Positions 4,775 through 30,731 of a stretch of DNA of 64,000 nt are shown here, piece after piece. The notes below the pieces were generated by a model. It saw only the letters and a program-made list of their open reading frames with translations. It was not told where the DNA came from and did no database searches. The DNA comes from Phascolarctobacterium sp. (GTDB taxonomy: Bacteria > Bacillota > Negativicutes > Acidaminococcales > Acidaminococcaceae). The DNA is taken from the NCBI GenBank assembly GCA_030531205.1, contig JAUNOC010000003.1:62001-126000 (forward strand), read 5' to 3'. Made by a program: the position numbers and the translations under genes. Every line of letters begins with the position of its first letter. Position 1 is the first letter of the stretch.

Positions 4775-6455
<1,681 letters not shown>

Positions 6456-15592: not shown

Positions 15593-15735
15593 TCAGGTAT
15601 CAGGTTACAGGGAAATTAGTAATTAGTAATTAGTAATGAGTAATTGTGGACAATTTTCGCTTTGCGAAAATTATCGATTAAAATCACAGGAACATTACAC
15701 ATTCATTGTGCATTGTGAATTGCGTAGAAGGAGTA
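15593..15735 (-). repeat. Dispersed GTTCC element, short form, inverted
   Basis: The core lies on the minus strand: TTAAAATCACAGGAAC (15678-15693) is the complement of GTTCCTGTGATTTTAA. The hairpin ATTTTCGC-TTT-GCGAAAAT (about 15652-15670) and TAATTAGTAATGAGTAATT arms flank it. The layout mirrors the copy at 3156-3268. A short CAGGTATCAGG tract starts it. Confidence 0.75.
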
Positions 15736-15743
15736 AAGTTGGC

Positions 15744-16208
15744 ATGCATATAGTACTTGTAGAGCCGGAGATTCCTGCCAATACGGGGAATGTGGCACGG
15801 CTTTGTGCGGTAACAGGAACGCCTTTACATTTGGTAAGACCCTTGGGGTTTAGTGTGGATGACAGGCATTTGAAACGGGCGGGTTTAGATTATTGGGATA
15901 TGTTGGAAATTCATTATTACGACAGCATTTATGAAGTATTAGAAAAATTTCCTAATACTTCCAAATTTTTTCTTACCAGTCATTGTTCCACATCTTATAC
16001 GGATGTAAAGTATGATGAAAACTCGCTTTTAATTTTTGGTAAAGAGAGTGTGGGTTTGCCTGAAAACTTGCGTTTGGAATATGCTGATGATTGCATTAGG
16101 ATTCCCATGGTTGAAGGAGCAAGATGTTTGAACCTGTCCAATGCGGTGGCAGTGGTAACTTATGAAGCGTTGAGACAATTAGGTAAACTATCAAAAGTTA
16201 TATTTTGA
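15744..16208 (+). CDS. trmL: tRNA (cytidine/uridine-34-2'-O)-methyltransferase
   Basis: This 154-residue SPOUT enzyme methylates the wobble base ribose of tRNA-Leu isoacceptors. The family motifs are seen in order: MHIVLVEPEIPANTGNVAR at the start (first 19 residues), then RPLGF, LIFGKESVGLP in the knotted SAM site, and IPMVEGARCLNLSNAVAV near the end. The start at 15744 is chosen because it begins exactly at the conserved strand and has GAAGGAG upstream; an upstream in-frame extension runs into repeat sequence. Confidence 0.93.
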   Translation: MHIVLVEPEIPANTGNVARLCAVTGTPLHLVRPLGFSVDDRHLKRAGLDYWDMLEIHYYDSIYEVLEKFPNTSKFFLTSHCSTSYTDVKYDENSLLIFGKESVGLPENLRLEYADDCIRIPMVEGARCLNLSNAVAVVTYEALRQLGKLSKVIF

Positions 16209-16860
16209 ATGAATAAAGAATAACTAATAATGAATAATTGTGGTAAGATGTTCCGTGGATTAAATATAATGCGTAATGCGTAATTCGCAATGCGTAATTA
16301 TGGTAAAATGTTCCTGTGATTATATTTAGGTATCAGGTTTGAGGTGTCAGTTTTCAGGGAAAGTTGGCATAGTGCGAAAGTAACCCTCTCCCCGGGGAGA
16401 GGGGCAGGGGTGTGGGGAAACATCCGATAGCAATTAGAAATGTGAATTGTGAAATTAGAAATGATGGTAAAATGTTCCTGTGATTATACAATTAGGTTTT
16501 AGGTGTTAGGGGTCAGGTTTCAGGAAGTTGGCAGAGCGAGAAAGTTTTCCCTCTTCTTGAAGAGGGGGACCGTTTTTAGGAACATAGAAGAACGGTGGGT
16601 GTTTTTGTCTACATGGAGTGTTCATACAGAAATCATGAATATAGAAATCGGAAATGATGAAGGCAGACCAATGAAAGAGAAGTTGAGCAATTTGGGAATG
16701 CTTCGCATAATGCAAAAACACCCGTCTGCCTCTTATGTTCCTGTGGGCAGCCACCCTCTTTAGAAAGAGGGAAAAAGTCGGCATAGTGCGAACAGTTTTG
16801 TTTTTAATTAAAGGAACATATTACCATAGTTTTAAGATTTAAGTTTTTAACTTTTAATTT
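16209..16860 (+). repeat. Dispersed GTTCC element cluster
   Basis: No credible gene is present in these 650 bases. Four cores are seen, at about 16250, 16310, 16474 and 16735. They are joined by TAATGCGTAATTCGCAATGCG arms, TTTCAGG-type tracts, the hairpin CCCTCTCCCCGGGGAGAGGG (about 16383) and two CCCTCTT/AAGAGGG hairpins. ACCGTT (16569-16574) / AACGGT (16591-16596) closes a 16-base loop with GGAACATAGAA. The cluster ends with AAAGGAACATATTACCATAG, the inverted complement of the element's left end. Short frames across it are repeat-derived. Confidence 0.8.
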
Positions 16861-16881: not shown

Positions 16882-17247
16882 ATGATTGTTATACGAACTT
16901 TCACTTTTGACGCTGCCCATTATGTGCCCTGCTATCATGGCAAGTGTGAGAACTTGCATGGTCATACATATAAATTAGTTGTCAAGGTTGATGGCAAATG
17001 CGATACTGAAGGCATGGTTATTGATTTTGCCGACTTGAAGAAAATTGTAAAAGATAATGTGGTTGATAAATTTGACCATCATTGTTTGAACGATATTATC
17101 AGTGTGCCAACGGCAGAAAATATTGCTGTTTATGTTTGGCAAAAATTGCAGCCGCTCTTGCAAAATGAACGCTATCATTTGGCGGAAGTGCAGATTTGGG
17201 AAACGGCAAACAATGGCTGTGTTTACAGGGGTGAAGAAATTGCGTGA
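16882..17247 (+). CDS. queD: 6-pyruvoyltetrahydropterin synthase/QueD family, PTPS-I/III type
   Basis: This is a 121-residue member of the PTPS/QueD family. The zinc ligands are His in FDAAHYVP and in HGH, and the catalytic DHH motif is in KFDHHCLND. The active-site signature reads CENLHGH, that is C-E-x2-HGH. In this family C-x3-HGH marks QueD (queuosine) enzymes, E-x2-HGH marks PTPS-III enzymes that replace dihydroneopterin aldolase (FolB), and CE-x2-HGH marks dual forms. The gene is upstream of and overlapping folE2, in a cluster with folP and folK but no folB, which supports a folate role. The ATG at 16882 has GAGGTG six bases upstream. tgt at 29.6 kb shows that queuosine is also used. 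Confidence 0.9.
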   Translation: MIVIRTFTFDAAHYVPCYHGKCENLHGHTYKLVVKVDGKCDTEGMVIDFADLKKIVKDNVVDKFDHHCLNDIISVPTAENIAVYVWQKLQPLLQNERYHLAEVQIWETANNGCVYRGEEIA

Positions 17248-18007
17248 TGTTCAGTCGGAAAAAGATGTGCGGAATGTGCCGTTGAAATATGTGGGTATAG
17301 ACAATCTGCGTTGGCCTTTGCAACTGAAAGACAAAAAACGGGGTGTGCAAAACACGGTGGCAAAGGTGCGTTTGGCGGTTGATTTGCCACAGGATTTGCG
17401 TGGTACGCACATGAGCCGTTTTGTGGAATGTTTGCAGGAACTTGAGTATTTGGAATTAGGGCAGGAAGAAAGAGTTTTGGATTTACTCAAAGAGCATTTG
17501 CAGGCACGCAGTGCCATGATGCGGTTGGAGTTTCCTTATTTTATCCAAAAGTCGGCTCCGGTTACGGGCAAAGTGGCGCCAATGGATATTGACTGTGTTT
17601 ATACGGCGGAAAAGGGTGAACAGTTTTCGTTGAAAGTTAGGGTGGAGATACCGATTCAAACCCTTTGCCCTTGTTCCAAAGAGATTAGCGACAGGGGGGC
17701 ACATAACCAAAGAGCTATTGCCAGAATTGAAATTTTGGCGGGTGAGATGGTGTGGCTGGAAGAATTGGCGGAGATGGCGGACAAGGCGGCAAGTGCTCCG
17801 GTTTACAGTTTGTTGAAACGTCTTGATGAGAAATTTGTTACGGAGCATGCTTATGACAATCCCCGTTTTGTGGAAGATGTGGTGCGGGAGCTGGCATTGT
17901 TGTTGGACGATGACAGACGGATAAAGTCATATCGGGTACAAGTGAAAAGCATTGAGAGTATTCATAATCATAATGCTTTTGCAGTAGTGGAGAAGGATTG
18001 GCAATGA
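17213..18007 (+). CDS. folE2: GTP cyclohydrolase I, type IB
   Basis: Opens GTP to dihydroneopterin triphosphate, the first step of folate and queuosine synthesis. The COG1469 type IB features are present: RDVQSEKDVRNVPLKYVG near the start, GTHMSRFVE, the cysteine-bearing TLCPCSKEISDRGAHNQR metal and substrate region, and the closing ESIHNHNAFA. The length of about 264 residues is normal. The start is uncertain: ATG at 17213 overlaps queD by 35 bases, while GTG at 17231 lies closer to the conserved part. Type IB enzymes can use metals other than zinc. The gene shares 4 bases (ATGA) with folP. Confidence 0.94.
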   Translation: MAVFTGVKKLRDVQSEKDVRNVPLKYVGIDNLRWPLQLKDKKRGVQNTVAKVRLAVDLPQDLRGTHMSRFVECLQELEYLELGQEERVLDLLKEHLQARSAMMRLEFPYFIQKSAPVTGKVAPMDIDCVYTAEKGEQFSLKVRVEIPIQTLCPCSKEISDRGAHNQRAIARIEILAGEMVWLEELAEMADKAASAPVYSLLKRLDEKFVTEHAYDNPRFVEDVVRELALLLDDDRRIKSYRVQVKSIESIHNHNAFAVVEKDWQ

Positions 18008-19128
18008 TTTGGCGTTTGCCATCGAATATGGTGGCTGAAGAAATTGCAAAGAGCGGTGCTCACGAAAAAAGTTTTCCGATTTTTAACGTTAAAAGTGAAT
18101 TTTTAACGTTAAAAATTGATAAGGTGCGTACCCCTGCGGCAAACATTTTGAAACAAGAAATGTTGGCTTTGGGTGGGGATGCGGTTACCCCTATGAGTAC
18201 AATTTTGGGAGAGGGGCAATATGTGGGTGTGCTTTTGTTGGGTACTCGCCGTCAGTTGAATTTGTTGGTACAAAAACTGGGGGAGATGCCCTTTTTTGGT
18301 TTGGACGGCATAAAAAAAGATTTGGAAAAATTTTTGCAAAAAGAGGATTTGCAGACAACTTTGCGGAACGGTAAAAAACTTTCCTTTGATAAGACACTGG
18401 TTATGGGAATTTTGAATTTGACTCCTGACAGTTTCTATGCTCAAAGCAGGATGGACAATGCGGAATTGTTGGTTAGGGCAGAGAAAATGTTAGCGGAGGG
18501 AGCGGATATTTTGGATTTGGGGGCGGAGAGTACCCGTCCCGGTGCCAAGCTGGTGAGTGAGGATGAGGAGATAAAGCGGTTGTTGCCTGGCTTAAAGGCA
18601 TTGAGAGAAGTGCATAAGGATGTACTTATCAGCGTGGACACTTATCATCCCAATACGGCACAGGAGGCATTGCAAAGCGGGGCAGATTTTATAAACGATG
18701 TCAGCGGCAAGGACAGTGTTGCCATGCAAAAAGTGGTGGAACTTTATCACACACCATGGATTTTGACGCATAATGGGGCAGGGGGAATTTTAGAGGTAAC
18801 GGAAAATTTGTTGCAAAGGGCGGAAAAGATTAGTTTAGGTAAGGACAAAATTATTCTTGACCCCGGTATTGGGTTCGGTAAAACTGCGGAAGAAAATTTA
18901 GATATTATAAAAAATCTAAAAGTTTTAACAGAGTATGGCTATCCTGTTTTGTTGGGGGCATCTCGCAAATCAGTGATTGGTGCTGTATTAAATTTGCCAC
19001 CGGAAGAACGCTTGGAAGGAACATTGGCAATAAGTGCCAAAGCGGTGGAGCAGGGGGCAAATATTATTCGTGTTCATGATGTGAAGGAAAATGTACGGAC
19101 AATAAGAATGGCGGAAGCGATTAATTAA
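18004..19128 (+). CDS. folP: Dihydropteroate synthase with N-terminal extension
   Basis: Joins 6-hydroxymethyl-dihydropterin pyrophosphate and p-aminobenzoate. The catalytic TIM barrel covers about residues 125-374: MGILNLTPDSFY, DLGAESTRPGA, ISVDTYHP, FINDVSG, ILDPGIGFGKT and LLGASRKS. The first 120 residues are an extra domain of the kind found in several Clostridia and Negativicutes. The segment FNVKSEFLTLK at about 27-37 is encoded by two TTTTTAACGTTAAAA palindromes, in frame. It overlaps folE2 by 4 bases, so the two are translationally coupled. Confidence 0.93.
   Translation: MIWRLPSNMVAEEIAKSGAHEKSFPIFNVKSEFLTLKIDKVRTPAANILKQEMLALGGDAVTPMSTILGEGQYVGVLLLGTRRQLNLLVQKLGEMPFFGLDGIKKDLEKFLQKEDLQTTLRNGKKLSFDKTLVMGILNLTPDSFYAQSRMDNAELLVRAEKMLAEGADILDLGAESTRPGAKLVSEDEEIKRLLPGLKALREVHKDVLISVDTYHPNTAQEALQSGADFINDVSGKDSVAMQKVVELYHTPWILTHNGAGGILEVTENLLQRAEKISLGKDKIILDPGIGFGKTAEENLDIIKNLKVLTEYGYPVLLGASRKSVIGAVLNLPPEERLEGTLAISAKAVEQGANIIRVHDVKENVRTIRMAEAIN
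18080..18114. repeat. Tandem palindromes TTTTTAACGTTAAAA inside folP
   Basis: Two copies of TTTTTAACGTTAAAA are separated by five bases (GTGAA), with centres at 18087.5 and 18107.5, exactly as in the intergenic pair at 8686-8720. They sit in the coding sequence of the N-terminal extension of folP and keep the frame. Confidence 0.75.
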
Positions 19129-19560
19129 ATGTGTAATGCGGAATTCGCAATGCGTAATTATGGTAAGATGTTCCTGTGATTATAATTGGGTTTCAGGTGT
19201 GCGGGGTTATGCGAACCCTCGTCCGCCCCTAAAGGGGCGGGGGACCGTCTAAAGGAACATAGAAAGACGGTGGTGGGGTGAGCAATTACGCTGTCGCTAA
19301 TGAAAAGATAAAATCTTAAAATTTAAAGTTATGGTAAGATGTTCCTGTGATTATAGCAGGAGAAGTTGGCAGAGTGCGGAGTTTGCCCTCTTGGTGAAGA
19401 GGGTGGATTGCCTAAAGGAACATAGAAGGGCAAGACGGGTGATTGCACACTGCGAAGTTATCAATCCCCAGTCGCGACCACGTTCCTAAAAGCGACAGCC
19501 CCTTCACCAAGGGGCCGAATGTGCGTATTAAATGGATTCATAGTGAATTTGTAATAAGGG
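19129..19560 (+). repeat. Dispersed GTTCC elements, two long copies in tandem
   Basis: This non-coding gap separates folP from folK. The first copy has the core at 19170-19184, the hairpin CCGCCCC-TAAA-GGGGCGG (about 19222) and ACCGTC (19244-19249) / GACGGT (19266-19271) around a loop with GGAACATAGAA. The second has the core at 19341-19355, CCCTCTT / AAGAGGG (about 19386) and TTGCC (19408-19412) / GGCAA (19429-19433) around the same loop, then GCCCCTT / AAGGGGC. The second copy is closely similar to the one at 4775-5135; the first to the one at 25.3-25.6 kb. Confidence 0.82.
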
Positions 19561-19568
19561 CGGATAAG

Positions 19569-19967
19569 ATGAGCATTGCGTATATTGCGTTGGGAAGTAA
19601 TTTAGGAGATAGAAAGGAAAATTTGGATAGAGCTTTGGACGAATTGAAGAAGGCAGGAATTAAAGTTGCTGCTGTGTCCAAGTATCTTGAAAGTGAGCCC
19701 TATGGTGTAACTGACCAGCCGAAGTTTATCAATGGTGTGGCGAGAGTGGAAACGAATTTGCCGCCGGAAGAACTTTTAGAAACTATGCTGAATATTGAAA
19801 ACAAAATGGGGCGGGTGCGGCTTCGTCATTGGGGGGAGCGGAATATTGACTTGGATTTGCTTCTCTATGATGATGTGAAAATGCAAACGGAAAAACTGAC
19901 ATTGCCCCATCCTGATATGCAAAATCGTGATTTTGTGATGAAACCATTGAGTGAAGTGAAATTGTGA
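19569..19967 (+). CDS. folK: 6-hydroxymethyl-7,8-dihydropterin pyrophosphokinase
   Basis: Transfers pyrophosphate from ATP to hydroxymethyl-dihydropterin, giving the FolP substrate. The HPPK motifs are present: YIALGSNLGDR at the N-terminus, then KYLESEPYGVTDQPKFINGV, and the signature RHWGERNIDLDLLLYDD followed by LPHPDMQNRDFVMKPL. The 132 residues are short for the family (about 150-160) but no motif is missing. The start at 19569 is chosen because it begins at the first beta strand; the upstream frame runs through repeat sequence. The stop codon is next to the aldo/keto reductase gene. Confidence 0.93.
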   Translation: MSIAYIALGSNLGDRKENLDRALDELKKAGIKVAAVSKYLESEPYGVTDQPKFINGVARVETNLPPEELLETMLNIENKMGRVRLRHWGERNIDLDLLLYDDVKMQTEKLTLPHPDMQNRDFVMKPLSEVKL

Positions 19968-19975
19968 GGTGGATG

Positions 19976-21148
19976 ATGCAAAAGAATGTAGCGTGTGGCG
20001 TAGAATTAAGCCGACTGGGTTTTGGCACAATGCGTTTGCCGGTAGATGGCAAGGGCGTTATTGACCAAGTGGAATTGGAACGGATGGTAGATTTTGCTAT
20101 TGCTAACGGTGTGAATTATTTTGACACGGCATATCCCTATATGGGTGGCAAAAGCGAGGAAGCCATTGGCAGGGCTTTGGCAAAATATCCAAGAGATAAA
20201 TGGTATTTGGCAACCAAATATCCTGGTCATCAAATTGCTGAAAAATATGACCCGGCAGAGGTTTTTGAAGACCAGTTGAAAAACTGTGGTGTGGATTATT
20301 TTGATTTTTATCTTTTGCATAATGTTTATGAAAATTCCATTCCGGTCTATATAGATCCTAAATGGGGAATTATAGATTATTTTAAGGAGCAGAGAGCAAA
20401 AGGACGCATTAAGCATTTGGGAATGAGCAGCCATGCCCAAGCACCGAATTTGGCAAAGTTTTTGGATGAATATGGGAAGGACTTGGAATTTGTGCAAATT
20501 CAGTTGAACTATTTGGATTGGACTTTGCAGAATGCCAAGGACAAGTACGATATCATTACAGCACACAATTTGCCGATTTGGGTAATGGAACCGGTGCGTG
20601 GAGGCAAACTTGCCAATTTGCAAAAGGAATATAGTGAAAAGTTATTGGCACGCCGTCCTCATGAAAGTGCGGCTGCTTGGGGGTTCCGCTGGCTTTTGGG
20701 GTTGCCTAATGTAAAAATGATTTTAAGCGGCATGAGCAATTTTGACCAAATGCAGGATAATGTAAAAACTTTTAGTGGTGGGGAAGATTTGACGAATGAT
20801 GAACGGAATCTGCTTTTAGAAATTGCAGAGCCGTTGAAACAGGCGGTACCCTGTACTGCTTGCTGTTATTGTGTGGCAGGATGTCCTAAGGGTTTGAATA
20901 TTCCTTTTCTGATTAGTGTATGTAATGATTTGAATTTTGAAATTGGTTTTAACCCTGCTATGCAGATGGATGCTATTCCTAAAGATAAGTGGCCTGACCA
21001 ATGTATTGCCTGCGGCAAGTGTAAAAAGATTTGTCCCCAAAATATTGATGTGCCAGCTACGATGAAGAAGTTAGTGGAACTTTTGGAGAAAGCCCCGAAG
21101 TGGGTGGAGATATGTAAAGAAAGAGCGGCTGCAAAAGCGAAGAAATAA
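19976..21148 (+). CDS. Aldo/keto reductase with C-terminal 4Fe-4S cluster domain
   Basis: This 390-residue protein has two parts. Residues 1 to about 270 form an aldo/keto reductase barrel: LGFGTMRLP, YFDTAYPYMGGKSEEAIGRAL with the catalytic tyrosine, KYPG, and FYLLHN. Residues about 280-360 carry cysteine clusters CTACCYCVAGCPKG and CIACGKCKKICP, typical of the Fe-S-fused AKR subfamily common in anaerobes. The substrate cannot be named. GTGAGGTGG is the ribosome site for ATG 19976 (or 19973). It starts eight bases after folK and probably shares its transcript, but no folate role is implied. Confidence 0.92.
   Translation: MQKNVACGVELSRLGFGTMRLPVDGKGVIDQVELERMVDFAIANGVNYFDTAYPYMGGKSEEAIGRALAKYPRDKWYLATKYPGHQIAEKYDPAEVFEDQLKNCGVDYFDFYLLHNVYENSIPVYIDPKWGIIDYFKEQRAKGRIKHLGMSSHAQAPNLAKFLDEYGKDLEFVQIQLNYLDWTLQNAKDKYDIITAHNLPIWVMEPVRGGKLANLQKEYSEKLLARRPHESAAAWGFRWLLGLPNVKMILSGMSNFDQMQDNVKTFSGGEDLTNDERNLLLEIAEPLKQAVPCTACCYCVAGCPKGLNIPFLISVCNDLNFEIGFNPAMQMDAIPKDKWPDQCIACGKCKKICPQNIDVPATMKKLVELLEKAPKWVEICKERAAAKAKK

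Positions 21149-29558: not shown

Positions 29559-30731
<1,173 letters not shown>

Follow-up and report, generated by a model that had tools for sequence, protein, structure and literature searches.

A CE-x2-HGH PTPS as probable replacement of FolB in Phascolarctobacterium and the order Acidaminococcales

PTPS-III enzymes are an established replacement of dihydroneopterin aldolase (FolB) (PMC3223725), and in the Plasmodium PTPS a glutamate is needed to obtain 6-hydroxymethyldihydropterin from dihydroneopterin triphosphate, its exchange for cysteine leaving an enzyme that gives the conventional product only (PMC2229834). Hybrids with the motif CExxHGH (PTPS-I/III, COG0720) have also been described, as enzymes working in both folate and queuosine synthesis (PMC5041015, which cites Phillips et al. 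2012 for them). Here we analysed such a gene in a 64,000-nucleotide stretch of Phascolarctobacterium sp. (GCA_030531205.1, contig JAUNOC010000003.1, positions 62,001 to 126,000; hereafter the window), for which an earlier note, made from the letters alone, had proposed that it replaces folB and perhaps serves queuosine synthesis as well. Judging by gene content and motif, we consider it highly likely that this CE-x2-HGH enzyme (CE-PTPS) does the folate job of FolB throughout the order Acidaminococcales and has no queuosine role in this organism or in its genus-mates. Enzymes of this type are known; the new points are how far the replacement, an exchange of one step of a vitamin pathway among gut-associated bacteria, extends through the order, and the retention of the QueD-type cysteine where preQ0 synthesis is gone.

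The window PTPS resembles the PTPS-I/III hybrids (PMC5041015) in motif, family and its place in a folate cluster in FolB's stead, but differs from them in that the queuosine pathway upstream of QueA is absent from its genome. The Plasmodium falciparum enzyme (1y13; PTPS-III, ExxHGH; PMC2229834) also replaces FolB, and its glutamate stands at the same distance from HGH as Glu23 of the window enzyme; however, it is only distantly similar and has no cysteine before the glutamate (FRETLH), whereas the window PTPS carries the QueD-type Cys22. E. coli QueD (4ntm; PTPS-I, CxxxHGH) is one of the solved structures nearest in sequence to the window PTPS and shares the cysteine with it, although the window PTPS has Glu and not Gly after it, lies in a folate cluster and belongs to a genome without QueC or QueE.

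The PTPS gene and its folate cluster

The genes concerned, with positions in the window, are the following:

15636 to 16208, plus strand: trmL-like tRNA methyltransferase, a common neighbour of the PTPS in the same family
16882 to 17247, plus strand: PTPS-I/III (CE-x2-HGH), predicted FolB replacement; COG0720 (PTPS/QueD), 121 aa, ATG start at 16882
17240 to 18007, plus strand: folE2, GTP cyclohydrolase IB; NF010200, 267 bits; TTG start overlapping the PTPS stop
17998 to 19128, plus strand: folP, dihydropteroate synthase; TIGR01496, 281 bits; N-terminal extension; start at TTG 17998 or ATG 18004
19129 to 19568, no strand: gap between folP and folK, the position of folB in FolB-bearing relatives; holds two copies of a dispersed repeat
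19569 to 19967, plus strand: folK, HPPK; TIGR01498, 147 bits

The PTPS gene is followed on the same strand by folE2, folP and folK, with overlaps between PTPS and folE2 and between folE2 and folP. The 440 nt between folP and folK contain the repeats, and a tblastn search of this gap with four FolB proteins of the class returned no remnant of FolB, so that the profile matches and the gap check agree with the earlier description of a cluster of queD-like, folE2, folP and folK genes lacking folB, whose positions were also stated correctly. Translation likewise bears out the reading CENLHGH given for the QueD homologue, the motif being KCENLHGH (K-C22-E23-N-L-H26-G-H28), with H13, H26 and H28 as putative zinc ligands and D65-H66 as putative catalytic pair. 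The protein scores 137.9 bits against PF01242 and has the ExxHGH motif of the COG0720 family (E-N-L-H-G-H); because it also exceeds the cut-off of the standard NCBIfam QueD model (106.6 bits against 89.25), automatic annotation would name it QueD and leave a gap at FolB. The named sequences nearest to it belong to a genome labelled Veillonellaceae and to a Phascolarctobacterium genome, and the Phascolarctobacterium PTPS (L004) is the same in score and reading as that of G008 (L107), from the family of the window, which supports placing the organism in the Acidaminococcaceae (class Negativicutes).

In the pathway that we propose, FolE2 would convert GTP to 7,8-dihydroneopterin triphosphate, whose side chain would be cleaved by the PTPS to give 6-hydroxymethyl-7,8-dihydropterin directly, with Glu23 as the putative acidic active-site residue; FolK and then FolP would carry the folate pathway on from there. 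For queuosine, Tgt and QueA would act on preQ1 obtained by salvage.

FolB and the glutamate across the order

The window genome (1.33 Mb, 15 contigs, 98.8% complete) gave no match to FolB (PF02152) in a search that was positive in 10 of 14 control genomes, and it holds exactly one PTPS; a separate folB, which would have spoken against the replacement, was not found, nor was a second queD. FolB was missing from all 63 genomes of the order that were searched, the single-contig G025, G039 and G063 among them, and was present in 18 of 20 genomes sampled from other orders of the class Negativicutes. A PTPS of the folate cluster was detected in 39 of 41 sampled genomes of the order (no match in G019 and G032), always with C-E-x-x-HGH (39/39), while FolB-bearing relatives yielded 17 PTPS sequences, none of which has glutamate at this position; this count leaves out the PTPS of G051, whose sequence was not read. 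The presence of FolB thus mirrors the absence of the glutamate, and the replacement anticipated for this gene very probably holds for this bacterium and for its order.

Gene order follows the same division, since four FolB-bearing loci examined read folP-folB-folK, in contrast to PTPS-folE2-folP-folK in the order, where that arrangement recurs at every locus whose examined stretch covers it, usually with trmL upstream; a recurrence of this extent argues that the arrangement is not due to chance. G048 (77% complete), which does not belong to the order, likewise lacks FolB; its folP-folK pair has a CE-PTPS next to it, and its que cluster contains a further QueD that has no such glutamate. When a tree was computed with the glutamate column left out, the CE-PTPS of G048 joined those of the order in a single group (SH-aLRT 95) distinct from the QueD common in the class, although the tree rests on few columns and its deeper relations are unsure. 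Derivation of the CE-PTPS by mutation of that common QueD was rejected, as the two fall in different large groups of this tree, in which many forks are unresolved. Among the papers that were searched, none linked Acidaminococcaceae with dihydroneopterin aldolase.

Several points weigh against this reading. All genomes of the order belong to a single clade, and the association of FolB with the motif amounts to roughly two events and not to 57 independent genomes; a Fisher test of motif against FolB was accordingly set aside, one unread PTPS also standing in its table. The catalytic activity assigned to the PTPS is inferred from gene content and motif, and the folate genes covered are the PTPS gene, folE2, folP, folK and folB, a part of the pathway that leaves aside FolC, dihydrofolate reductase and the p-aminobenzoate genes. 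Finally, the cysteine needed for QueD activity is still present; the enzyme could therefore have that activity, and it is a use for it that is ruled out. None of the CE-PTPS of the order has lost this cysteine, not even where QueC and QueE are missing from the genome. The residue may contribute to the folate step, or what QueD activity yields may be used elsewhere, and the CE motif alone would then be no predictor of work in both pathways; we put this forward as a tentative suggestion, somewhat less likely to be right than wrong.

Queuosine genes and rival explanations

The presence of tgt in the window was correctly noted before:

29559 to 30728, plus strand: tgt open frame; TIGR00430, 534 bits; domain match over residues 26-387

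QueA is present in the genome too. The best, weak match to QueC (5.8e-7) proved to be MnmA and that to QueE (3.7e-19) NrdG2, and both candidates were rejected; QueF and QueT gave no match. Neither QueF nor QueT was found in the genus-mates G001 and G002, and any profile matches to QueC or QueE in these were far weaker than real ones (E-values about 1e-45 or lower). Because QueC, QueE, QueF and QueT are missing, the window genome would be unable to make preQ0 by the known route, and the presence of tgt does not make a QueD necessary, since QueC, QueE and QueF are absent from this genome and from the two genus-mates. QueA and Tgt without QueC, QueE and QueF are the pattern of the preQ1-salvage variant Ap (PMC6593275), which also calls for QueG or QueH and for a precursor transporter. 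The former pattern is found here, and to this extent the genome fits the variant, the salvage route itself being deduced from gene content; the one transporter looked for, QueT, is absent. An assignment to PTPS-I (QueD) would call for CxxxHGH together with QueC and QueE, of which only the cysteine is present; similarly, the PTPS-I/III motif CExxHGH is there and the queuosine partners QueC and QueE are not.

Of the 41 sampled genomes of the order, 18 lack both QueC and QueE; as several of the 41 are incomplete, the overall pattern is more secure than any one absence. Another 13 have QueC without QueE and fit variant Ac, which is thought to salvage 7-carboxy-7-deazaguanine (PMC6593275); QueC-only loci include L169 and L177 and those of G004, G005, G007, G009, G020, G022, G026, G028, G031, G033 and G034, and in G003 and G029 QueC lies in a queC-queT-queF cluster. 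Both QueC and QueE occur in ten genomes, eight of which keep a separate Glu-less QueD. The other two (G037 and G040) have a queC-queE pair and the CE-PTPS as only regular PTPS, and are the only strong candidates in the sample for one enzyme in both pathways. The CE-PTPS is therefore met in three settings within one order, namely full preQ0 synthesis with a separate QueD, full synthesis without another regular QueD, and no preQ0 synthesis; CE-x2-HGH plus tgt is insufficient for inferring use in both pathways. Ten genomes of the order also encode a further PTPS-like protein (L158-L167, e.g., L159:3810-4385), whose motif reads GEA(Q/R)YLHGH; it has neither the QueD cysteine nor the PTPS-III glutamate in place, scores below the QueD cut-off, and is absent from the window genome.

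A single enzyme for folate and queuosine synthesis together, as the earlier note had suggested for this organism, would be in keeping with the CE-x2-HGH motif of the hybrids working in both pathways (PMC5041015) and with the presence of Tgt and QueA, but the enzymes that would use the QueD product are absent here and in two genus-mates, and most sampled genomes of the order with QueC and QueE maintain a dedicated QueD; this makes such a double role very improbable. We give even less credence to the idea that the gene is a plain QueD persisting as a relic among the folate genes while an unrecognised enzyme carries out the FolB step. The score above the NCBIfam cut-off and the conserved cysteine would suit it, whereas there is no queuosine pathway here that would maintain the gene, and the folate clusters of the order retain both gene and glutamate in just the genomes that lack FolB. 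It is also scarcely credible that FolB or que genes are hidden in unassembled sequence: the assembly is in 15 contigs and just short of complete, yet the lack of FolB extends over the whole order, single-contig genomes included, and the absences of QueC, QueE, QueF and QueT repeat in G001 and G002. Replacement of FolB by a CE-PTPS with no part in queuosine synthesis here thus agrees best with the distribution of these genes.

Neighbouring genes and a dispersed repeat

An aldo/keto reductase-like gene (window 19964-21148) overlaps the end of folK, and in the genus-mate G001 (L190:673-2301) FolK and reductase sequences share a single 543-codon open frame. The repeat seen between folP and folK is intergenic, roughly 100 bp long and dispersed, starting with ATGGTAAxATGTTCCTGTGATTATA and ending with AAAGGAACAT(AG). 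Its sites include 16300-16850 and 19128-19430, and others near 4870, 25430, 30840, 40430 and 51790. The ends are inverted (ATGTTCC/GGAACAT), the interior contains a strong hairpin, and about ten starts were counted in the 64 kb window, nearly all on the same strand.
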